Origin: an uncultured Flavobacteriaceae bacterium
Lineage (GTDB): Bacteria; Bacteroidota; Bacteroidia; Flavobacteriales; Flavobacteriaceae
Direction: 5' to 3'
NCBI GenBank assembly: GCA_913030895.1
Contig: CAJWGK010000002.1
Coordinates: forward strand, 16,810 to 80,809
DNA length: 64,000 nucleotides
A model generated the notes under the pieces. It was not told the DNA's origin. It was given only the letters and a program-made list of their open reading frames with translations, and searched no databases. Made by a program: the position numbers and the translations under genes. Position 1 is the first letter of the stretch. Each line of letters begins with the position of its first letter. Positions 49,247-54,859 of this stretch are shown here, piece by piece.

Positions 49247-49989
49247 AATGCTTATTTATAAATACAAATTTAAACCAATTTAGCGGTAAATCCCGCCTAT
49301 GCCTCTATTGAATTTGGCTCCAATATAAATTGATATAAATTGTAGGATAATAATTAATAGAATTGTCTAAAATTTACAATTTAACGAACAGCATTTTCAC
49401 GACTGTGGTCTCCCCATCGGCGGCCCCTATTTTGAGCTTTAAAAGCGTGGGTAGAATTAATCTCAACTACTTTACTATCAAGCTTTTAAATGGCTTTTTA
49501 TTGAATTGGAATTTGAGATCAAAACTATTTGTAAATATCGCAAAACCGAAATTAGTGATTTGTTCGAAAAGTAATTTGATTCGTAATGTAAAAAGTAACT
49601 TCTCGACAAACAACATAAAAAACATTACAATTTGTAAGAAAGTTCTTACTCCTATGTATCTATTAAAAACTTAAAGCTTTCAAAAATTAATTAGATTTTA
49701 GTTTTACCCCAAGTCATTACTAAAACCCCATCAAATTATGAACTTTACCTACGCAAGTAATCTACGGACTTTTCTATCTAAAAGAATCCTTTCCATTTTT
49801 ACGATCCTATTTCAGCGAAATTCCATTGCTAAGAAAAAAACAGGAAAACCTAGAAAACTCTTTGCCTTACGTGAAATGATCGTCCATCATATGGATGGAC
49901 TTCAAATACAATACTTTGGATTAGTTGAATATTCCCCCACCACAATAAATCAAAAGAAATCAATAAACGCTCAAAAGATTATAAATCCA

Positions 49990-51129
49990 ATGAAAACAAA
50001 TCGAAGAACAAAGTTACTCTATCAGATTACCCTGAGCATGATGCTTGTCTTTTTGGGACAGAATCTTTTTGGGCAAGTTAAGATAGGAGATAATACTGAA
50101 AATATAAACCCCTACGCTATTTTGGAATTAGAAAGCGATCGACTGGGGGTTATTTGGCCGAGTATGTCAACCGAGCAGCGGGACGCGGCTTTTATCAATG
50201 ATATTCCCATTGGACTGACCATTTATAACACCGATGAGCGCTGTATACAATATTGGGATCAGCAATGGCGATGCACCAGTACCGTTGCCGATAATAATTA
50301 TGGCAGTGCGAACGCTTTAGGGATTGCCGCTGGTGGGGCTATCGTGGAGATAAAAAACAATAGCGGTACGCTGGAATATACCTTACTTACCCCCTATTTT
50401 GGTGGATTAACGGCACTTAACAATACCGATGACAGCATAAAGAAATGGGACGGCTCCACATGGGTAAATGGTTTATCTTCTAGTGGATCAGTTGGTTTTT
50501 CTACTATTATTGGAGAAACTAAAACGATTTTATATAATTTTAGTGGTAACAGTAGTCTACAAACAATAACCAAAGGGGATGGCTCTGAATGGGCATTTAT
50601 GAATGGGGCAACCATAACTAATGCTCAGACATTATACCCTGATTTTTATAATTTAATTCAAAGTGTGGCTTCCTCTTATATAAGTGGTAGCAATGTTACT
50701 TTGATTGATTCCAGAGGGCTTTTTGCAAGATCTGCTAATGCTGGCAGAGGGACTACCTATGACCCAAATACCACTAATATTTGGGAATTCTCGGCGGATA
50801 AAACTGCTGTAAACGGATTGTCTTCCTCTTCAAACTCAGCAGGGTACCATTCTCATAGTGGAACAACAAATACTACTGGAAATCACGCTCATTCTTATGT
50901 AGATGAAAGTGCCAATGGTACCGAACCTGCCGGTAGTGGGTCTGGAAAAACAGTAGGAAATTCAGACGAACAACACGAAAGTAAAGCAACAGGAAATGGT
51001 GGCAATCACTACCACTCATTAAACATTAATAATGCTGGAAGTCACTCTCACTCAATCTCAATCAGTGGAGATTCTGAGACAAGACCTCATAATTTTGGCG
51101 TTAGGCATAGGATCATAAGAATTAAATAG
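49990..51129 (+). CDS. Secreted surface protein with phage tail-collar/tail-fibre-like His-rich C-terminal domain
   Basis: Signal peptide MKTNRRTKLLYQITLSMMLVFLGQNLFGQ; C-terminus GYHSHSGTTNTTGNHAHSY...GNHYHSLNINNAGSHSHSISISGDSETRPHNFGVRHRIIRIK; the open frame extends upstream to 49738. Confidence 0.75.
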   Translation: MKTNRRTKLLYQITLSMMLVFLGQNLFGQVKIGDNTENINPYAILELESDRLGVIWPSMSTEQRDAAFINDIPIGLTIYNTDERCIQYWDQQWRCTSTVADNNYGSANALGIAAGGAIVEIKNNSGTLEYTLLTPYFGGLTALNNTDDSIKKWDGSTWVNGLSSSGSVGFSTIIGETKTILYNFSGNSSLQTITKGDGSEWAFMNGATITNAQTLYPDFYNLIQSVASSYISGSNVTLIDSRGLFARSANAGRGTTYDPNTTNIWEFSADKTAVNGLSSSSNSAGYHSHSGTTNTTGNHAHSYVDESANGTEPAGSGSGKTVGNSDEQHESKATGNGGNHYHSLNINNAGSHSHSISISGDSETRPHNFGVRHRIIRIK

Positions 51130-51135
51130 AGCGAA

Positions 51136-51225
51136 ATGAAAATAACTTTATTAAGGTCCCTAACCCTAGTGAGTCTATTTCTCACGACCTACATAAAAAT
51201 AACTAACAGCTTATCGCCCTACTAG
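51136..51225 (+). CDS. Short signal-peptide-like ORF (29 aa), possibly a remnant
   Basis: MKITLLRSLTLVSLFLTTYIKITNSLSPY*. Confidence 0.3.
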   Translation: MKITLLRSLTLVSLFLTTYIKITNSLSPY

Positions 51226-51251
51226 CCCTATTCTGGTTATTGGATTAAACT

Positions 51252-51336
51252 GGGAAGCCTTTCCCCGAGAGACACTAGTGTGCCTCGGGAGTAGAACGAG
51301 TGGGATGATACGTTCTGGGAAGGGTCTCCCTTTTTT
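51252..51336 (+). ncRNA. Candidate structured RNA (three-way junction) ending in a U-tract
   Basis: P1 GGGAAGCCTTTCCC(51252-51265)/GGGAAGGGTCTCCC(51317-51330), 13 of 14 positions pairable; P2 CGAG(51266-51269)/CTCG(51284-51287) with ACACTAGTGT inside; P3 AGAACG(51293-51298)/CGTTCT(51311-51316); TTTTTT at 51331. Confidence 0.55.
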
Positions 51337-51554
51337 GATTTTTGATCGCAGCCTCGCCAATCAAAAAAAACCTGATAAATATATTTTTAAAAACATCTCA
51401 AACAGTTCAGCTGTTTCTACTTCCACTTGCCCCCGCTTCCTAAGGTAAGATGCAATCAGGCGAATGGGTATAGGAAAGCACCTGAGGAAGTGAAAATAGG
51501 AAGGCTATTGTTTAATTTGCCCTATCTTAGCTTAAATAAAATACTTTATGGCAG

Positions 51555-52709
51555 GTGTTGAGTTTTATCAAAAATAACTTGAGAAACATTTGGCTGCTGG
51601 CTGCCTTCTTCATTGTAAGCTTGATTGTTTGGAACACTAATCTTTTGTTTAGCACCCTAAAGCAGGAAGAGCGCAAAAAAATGGAGTTATGGGCGCTGGC
51701 ACAGGAGGAGCTGATCCAAAACAGCGTAGTCAATAACCTCACTTTTGAGGTGTTGCAGCAAACGTGGATCAATCCCATGATTCAAGTGGATCAAAACGGT
51801 GAAATTATCGGCCATAAGAATGTGGATTGGGATGCAACCCAAATGGACTCGCTAGAGCTTTACAATCGCCTAAAGCAGATCAAAAGGGAAAACCAACCCA
51901 TCTTGATTCAATACCAAGACAGCCTGTCGAATATCAATCAAAAGCTGTATTACGGGGATTCGATCTTATTGAAGAAATTGCAATACTATCCCCTTGCACT
52001 GCTTTTAATCATTTTTCTTTTTGGGGCAGTACTCTATTTTGTTTACAAAACCAGTAGGATATCGGCGCAAAACCGCCTTTGGACGGCTATGGCGAAAGAA
52101 ACTGCGCACCAAATTGGCACCCCGCTGACCTCGATGATAGGATGGATAACGCTGATGAAGGAAAAGGAAGAGGCCAGCGAGCCCCTGAGTGAAATCGAAA
52201 AGGACTTGGCGCGACTGCAAGTCATCACCGATCGTTTTTCAAAAATGGGATTCCTCCCCGAATTGCAAGTGGCTGATATCGTCGCCGAAACAAAAAATAC
52301 GGTTGAATACCTTGAAAAACGCAGTTCCACCTTAGTAAAATTCCAAACACAATTCCCCGAGGATGGGGTATTACTGCCACTTAACCGCCAGCTTTTTAGT
52401 TGGACCCTAGAAAATCTTATCAAAAATGGTATTGATGCCATGAAGGGAAAAGGCACCATTGGGGTAAGGATAGAAAATCAAGTCAATTCGGTGGCGATCA
52501 CCGTTAGCGATACTGGTGCAGGGATAAAAAAAGATCTGTATAAAAAAATATTTTCTCCGGGCTTTACTTCCAAAAAAAGAGGCTGGGGACTCGGGCTGTC
52601 TTTGGCAAAAAGGATCATTACTGACTACCACAAAGGAAAGATAAGTGTTAAAAATTCGGTGCTGGGTCAAGGCACTACTTTTGAAATCATACTCAAAAAA
52701 GATACTTAA
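51555..52709 (+). CDS. Membrane sensor histidine kinase (GTG start)
   Basis: Two TM segments, KETAHQIGTPLTSMIGW H-box, ENLIKNGIDAM N-box, DTGAGI, GWGLGLSL. Confidence 0.93.
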   Translation: MLSFIKNNLRNIWLLAAFFIVSLIVWNTNLLFSTLKQEERKKMELWALAQEELIQNSVVNNLTFEVLQQTWINPMIQVDQNGEIIGHKNVDWDATQMDSLELYNRLKQIKRENQPILIQYQDSLSNINQKLYYGDSILLKKLQYYPLALLLIIFLFGAVLYFVYKTSRISAQNRLWTAMAKETAHQIGTPLTSMIGWITLMKEKEEASEPLSEIEKDLARLQVITDRFSKMGFLPELQVADIVAETKNTVEYLEKRSSTLVKFQTQFPEDGVLLPLNRQLFSWTLENLIKNGIDAMKGKGTIGVRIENQVNSVAITVSDTGAGIKKDLYKKIFSPGFTSKKRGWGLGLSLAKRIITDYHKGKISVKNSVLGQGTTFEIILKKDT

Positions 52710-54115: not shown

Positions 54116-54859
54116 ATGAAAAACCTACTGATTTTTGTACTGCTACTGTGCCACTTAGGAGCTTTCGGCCAATGGCTCGATTTGGATTACAATTCCGCAA
54201 TAAAAAGGGAAAGCCAGTTTAATATTTCACTTTTTAAATACTTTCAAGCGGGCATGACCACGCTAGGGCATTTAGATGCCAGCTCAGAGATCCTCAAAAT
54301 TAATTTTAAGACCTCCAGCAGTGTATCGATCGGACTGGCTGTCGCTGGCACCCAAACTTTTATCATCGGAAACAAATCCGATAAAAGAAATAACTTTTCT
54401 CACTTACTCAACCCCACAGGGGGGATTGTCAATGGCAGTTTATTTATGAATTTCCGGTTAAAGAAAAAAGAAAAATACACTCTTAAACTCAACGCCAGAG
54501 GAGGGCTGAAATTGATAGAGGGCTCCCCCCTCCAAGGCTTAAAAAGCCGATTCAAAAGTACTTTTGGGCAGTTTGGACTCACCTATGAGCGGTTATTGTT
54601 TGAAGATGCCCCTGAAAATCAACGCATAGACTTTTGGAGCTACCCCCACCTGCTATATTGTCAAGTAGGGGAAGCTGATTTGTCTTCGTTTTTTGGTAAC
54701 GAACTCAAGCCACAAAACTACGGTTATGGCTGGCAAACAGGCGTGGAATTCAATCGCCAATTGCGGATCACTTGCCTGCTCAACCAGTTTTTAAATACCC
54801 CAAAATTCTCTACTCTGGGGATAGCAGTATTGCGGTTAAATGTCTCTTATCAATTCTAA
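54116..54859 (+). CDS. Secreted/outer-membrane protein of unknown function
   Basis: Signal peptide MKNLLIFVLLLCHLGAFGQ; beta-rich alternating pattern ending in YQF. Confidence 0.6.
   Translation: MKNLLIFVLLLCHLGAFGQWLDLDYNSAIKRESQFNISLFKYFQAGMTTLGHLDASSEILKINFKTSSSVSIGLAVAGTQTFIIGNKSDKRNNFSHLLNPTGGIVNGSLFMNFRLKKKEKYTLKLNARGGLKLIEGSPLQGLKSRFKSTFGQFGLTYERLLFEDAPENQRIDFWSYPHLLYCQVGEADLSSFFGNELKPQNYGYGWQTGVEFNRQLRITCLLNQFLNTPKFSTLGIAVLRLNVSYQF

Follow-up and report, generated by a model that had tools for sequence, protein, structure and literature searches.

Relation to described terminators and structured RNAs

Termination signals have been little studied in Bacteroidota. Intrinsic terminators are built from a GC-rich hairpin that is followed directly by a U-rich tract of 7-8 nt (PMC8346122), and structured RNA candidates of Bacteroidetes include the Flavo-1 motif (RF01705; PMC2864571). 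In F. psychrophilum, 3'-UTR regions and sRNAs have been seen as transcripts, some of which are conserved (PMC9723704).

Here, we analysed a stretch of 64,000 nucleotides from an uncultured Flavobacteriaceae bacterium (the window), in which a compact element was predicted at 51252-51336 on the + strand. The element is like a Rho-independent terminator in that a GC-rich helix lies flush with a U run, on the same strand and shortly past a stop codon, but such a terminator is one short stem-loop, whereas the stem of the element is broken up by a three-way junction, carries two additional hairpins and spans 79 nt. It resembles Flavo-1 as a structured RNA candidate in Bacteroidetes, yet the covariance search of the window gave no match to this motif at E <= 10, which speaks against the Flavo-1 identity that the first-pass annotation had considered possible. 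With the F. psychrophilum RNAs it shares its place in the 3' region of a Flavobacteriia gene, its structure and a predicted terminator; unlike these, it is a prediction from sequence and gave no homologues in the genomes searched.

Predicted fold and its stability

The outer helix P1 pairs GGGAAGCCTTTCCC (51252-51265) with GGGAAGGGTCTCCC (51317-51330) at 13 of 14 positions, including two G-U pairs, the sole mismatch being A51256/C51326. It encloses the hairpins P2 (51265-51288, + strand), formed by CCGAG...CTCGG (CGAG at 51266-51269, CTCG at 51284-51287) and worth -10.1 kcal/mol alone, and P3 (51292-51317, + strand), formed by TAGAACG...CGTTCTG (AGAACG at 51293-51298, CGTTCT at 51311-51316) and worth -6.4 kcal/mol alone, the latter being contiguous with the 3' strand of P1. 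The U-tract TTTTTT (51331-51336, + strand) follows directly, flush with the end of the P1 helix. The first-pass annotation had described these strands, their coordinates, the 13 of 14 pairs around two hairpins, the AGAACG/CGTTCT hairpin abutting P1 and the adjoining TTTTTT, and all were present as described. The palindrome ACACTAGTGT that it had placed inside CGAG...CTCG does form an inner hairpin, though one limited to three pairs (CAC/GTG) with a loop of 4 nt. It had seen no convincing reading frame over the element; a single ORF of at least 50 aa crosses it (51278-51448, + strand, 56 aa, GTG start), and this has no Pfam match.

Structure prediction returned the three-way fold proposed by eye as both the minimum free energy structure (-36.6 kcal/mol) and the centroid. 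The pair probabilities of P1 were mostly >0.9 in isolation and ~0.9 in a 301-nt context, and the fold recurred in the prediction of a 425-nt stretch. As C51265, the innermost base of P1, prefers the P2 helix in the predicted fold, P1 there comprises 12 pairs. The 5' strand of P1 can also form a local hairpin of 5 bp (-4.8 kcal/mol), and its 3' strand with the first T's a small local terminator-type hairpin. The latter was recognised from a fold with a span limit of 40 nt and from a terminator scan. When pairs of >40 nt were forbidden, the sequence still folded at -29.4 kcal/mol with the 3' strand pairing locally (GGAAGGG-UCU-CCCUUUU), and the scan independently listed 51317-51335; together these suggest that a terminator-type hairpin would stand at the U-tract with or without the long P1. 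The P1 strands are each quasi-palindromic and form near direct repeats of one another, with 13 of 16 positions identical (CTGGGAAG CCTTTCCC against CTGGGAAG GGTCTCCC), so that the repetition of a short palindrome is sufficient to create the three-way appearance. A perfect 10-bp A/T inverted repeat (TTTTTTGATT / AATCAAAAAA, 51331-51368) starts at the U-tract and could be a competitor of it or a bidirectional terminator.

Inverted-repeat DNA in general folds on both strands, and the opposite strand of the element was nearly as stable (-32.0 kcal/mol, z -3.25). The + strand was taken as the RNA strand on account of the two G-U pairs, which favour it (-36.6 against -32.0 kcal/mol), and of the U-tract. 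Against shuffled sequences z was about -3.3. The 106-nt stretch gave z -3.46, with one of 200 shuffles as stable, and of 5000 dinucleotide shuffles of the 79-nt core, 22 reached or exceeded its stability; 5 of 20,000 shuffles paired end to end at 13 or more of the 14 positions. The excess of stability over chance is real and moderate; it is only moderate because the core has a high GC content (58%, the window having 40%), which favours folding, and because the opposite strand is nearly as stable.

As the site had been picked by eye from 64 kb, after the fact, we examined all T-runs within 445 kb of this genome for branched structures ending at them, and among the 5062 sites the element was the most stable (-35.4). 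Six local shuffles per site, each of the site's own upstream 92 nt, yielded a mean of 0.5 branched structures at <=-30 and none at <=-35. The other strong T-run structures whose surroundings were inspected are located within or across protein-coding frames, such as the one at 54475 in the frame 54116-54859; one simple hairpin, at L107:4940, overlaps both the interval behind a gene and the end of a second, convergent one.

Genomic setting and search for relatives

The element follows a secreted-looking gene with likeness to tail collar and tail fibre proteins (49990-51129, + strand), for which ATG 49990 is the likely start within the listed ORF 49738-51129. Residues 276-455 matched tail, tail collar and tail fibre entries of PHROGs with E down to 6e-6, and no Pfam or NCBIfam match was found for the protein. 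As homologous 3' ends were wanted for comparison with the element, relatives of the protein were searched. Several Flavobacteriia proteins are related to its N-terminal part, its C-terminal tail-collar-like part is without relatives in 398 genomes of the order, and close relatives of the protein were absent from the genome, viral and phage collections. The gene is probably an extra gene that was horizontally acquired.

Gene and element are both held by a segment of ~2.2 kb (49290-51500) which, in the comparison with congeners, was present in this genome only. It lies between a divergent DUF3127 gene (- strand) and a histidine kinase gene (51555-52709, + strand), which are adjacent and 110-190 bp apart in all 20 congeners that have the locus. 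Homology to the congener spacers stops near 49289 on the left and restarts near 51501 on the right, from where the promoter-proximal sequence of the kinase is conserved. Parsimony favours an insertion here over a loss in all the others, and the ends of the segment showed neither a target duplication nor repeats. Upstream of the kinase there is a further inverted repeat (CTTCCTAAGGT...ACCTGAGGAAG, 10 of 11 positions, 51418-51490); considered as a second structured region, 51418-51490 was rejected, as z was -0.75 on the + strand (not significant) and -1.8 on the - strand (weak). According to the search table, the kinase frames of loci L014 (genome G014) and L015 (G010) contain one in-frame TAG each, which may fall right where the match ends.

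The search for relatives of the element itself covered several collections. Rfam, which the first-pass annotation had proposed as a check, gave eukaryotic or chance matches only, at gathering as well as permissive thresholds, and thus no known family. Beyond short A/T matches there was no second copy in the same genome, about 100 related genomes gave DNA matches at the level of T-tracts only, phage and plasmid DNA did not match the element, and its exact patterns did not occur in genome or viral contigs. A covariance model was built from the single sequence and run on 400 genomes of the family, 22 of the genus and 398 of the order (~800 genome draws); such a model is of limited sensitivity, and strongly diverged relatives could escape it. 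It returned weak, chance-level matches only, in G014 (17.4 bits), G033 (16.4), G729 (24.3) and G733 (17.8). Three of the four loci were read and rejected as homologues, since they are all coding and do not keep the pairs: the match in G014 falls in an FGE-like gene, that in G729 in the frame of an extracellular protein and that in G733 opposite dnaG.

Terminator reading and its alternatives

Probably, the element serves the inserted tail-collar-like gene as a Rho-independent terminator whose stem is branched and unusually long. This reading is based on the GC-rich helix flush with TTTTTT, on the same strand as the gene and 122 nt past its stop codon (51129), with no other hairpin and U-tract between stop and element. 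It is further favoured by the independent listing of 51317-51335 in the terminator scan, by the two G-U pairs that point to the + strand, by the rank of the element as the most stable branched T-run structure in 445 kb, and by the fact that gene and element share one insertion, whereas genomes without the element retain the conserved region upstream of the kinase. The first-pass annotation had left the choice between a small RNA and an elaborate 3' UTR or terminator, and it is the terminator half that strand, position, first U-tract hairpin and an insertion absent from 20 congeners favour. Some points argue against the terminator reading. A simple hairpin would suffice, as shown by tsf in the same window with its plain one of 11 bp; a multi-branched stem is unusual; P1 closes over 51 nt and would do so more slowly than a local hairpin; and as the searches gave no homologues, its fold carries no sign of selection.

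A polymerase leaving the tail-collar-like gene would transcribe P2 and P3, which would fold first. During a pause on the U-tract, the 12-13-bp P1 could then close across the two stacked hairpins, or its 3' strand could fold locally (AAGGG-UCU-CCCUU). By either route, a GC-rich helix would end at the U-tract and the transcript would be released. The remaining 3'-UTR structure may shield the 3' end of the mRNA and may also prevent read-through from the inserted gene into the histidine kinase.

The small-RNA half of the earlier proposal, a stand-alone or 3'-UTR-derived sRNA of ~85-130 nt that would use the U-tract as its terminator and act in trans, appears unlikely. Its compact and stable fold with a terminator end would suit an sRNA, Flavobacterium has many sRNAs and 3' transcribed regions (PMC9723704), and an RNA derived from a 3' UTR does not require a separate promoter; however, the searches of genus, family and order gave no relative, Rfam no match, and the sigma-A -7 box TAnnTTTG is absent between 51100 and 51252, where a one-mismatch TAACTTTA occurs at 51143 only and no -33 TTG was seen. 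A DNA-level element, that is a palindromic repeat pair or the end of a mobile segment (a recombinase or transposase site, or a cruciform) with which the tail-collar-like gene would have arrived, is slightly less probable again. The quasi-palindromic P1 strands, repeated directly at 13 of 16 positions (CTGGGAAG...), would yield the three-way pairing automatically, and they sit in a genome-specific insertion, but this genome holds no further copy, the left end of the insertion has no matching repeat or inverted copy, the element lies ~165 bp inside the right junction rather than at it, and phage and plasmid sequences did not match. We give only a small chance to a new lineage-specific structured RNA, acquired with the tail-fibre-like gene, whose junction would do more than stop transcription, either as a 3'-UTR-derived sRNA or as a conditional terminator alternating between three-way fold and local hairpin.

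The same strand, the distance of 219 nt to the start of the downstream histidine kinase and the U-tract end would also fit an attenuator or riboswitch-like leader of that gene. As 20 congeners have the kinase behind a 110-190-bp spacer without the element, and the kinase thus does without it, this is very improbable; moreover, the conserved kinase-proximal spacer (~51501-51554) lies downstream of the element. Targets of diversity-generating retroelements can encode tail-fibre-like proteins, and the GC-rich hairpin behind a tail-collar-like gene recalls the arrangement of a hairpin adjoining such a target. The assembly (~87% complete) contains neither a reverse transcriptase (PF00078) nor a template repeat of the 3' end of the gene, which leaves this explanation hardly credible.

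Considered as the terminator of the inserted gene, the element is most simply an unusually elaborate case of a known kind, a new functional RNA being unsupported. It illustrates how a conspicuous RNA structure spotted by eye may be genuine and still be explained as a terminator behind an accessory gene. Should the branching prove important, the element would represent a multi-branched intrinsic terminator in Bacteroidota.
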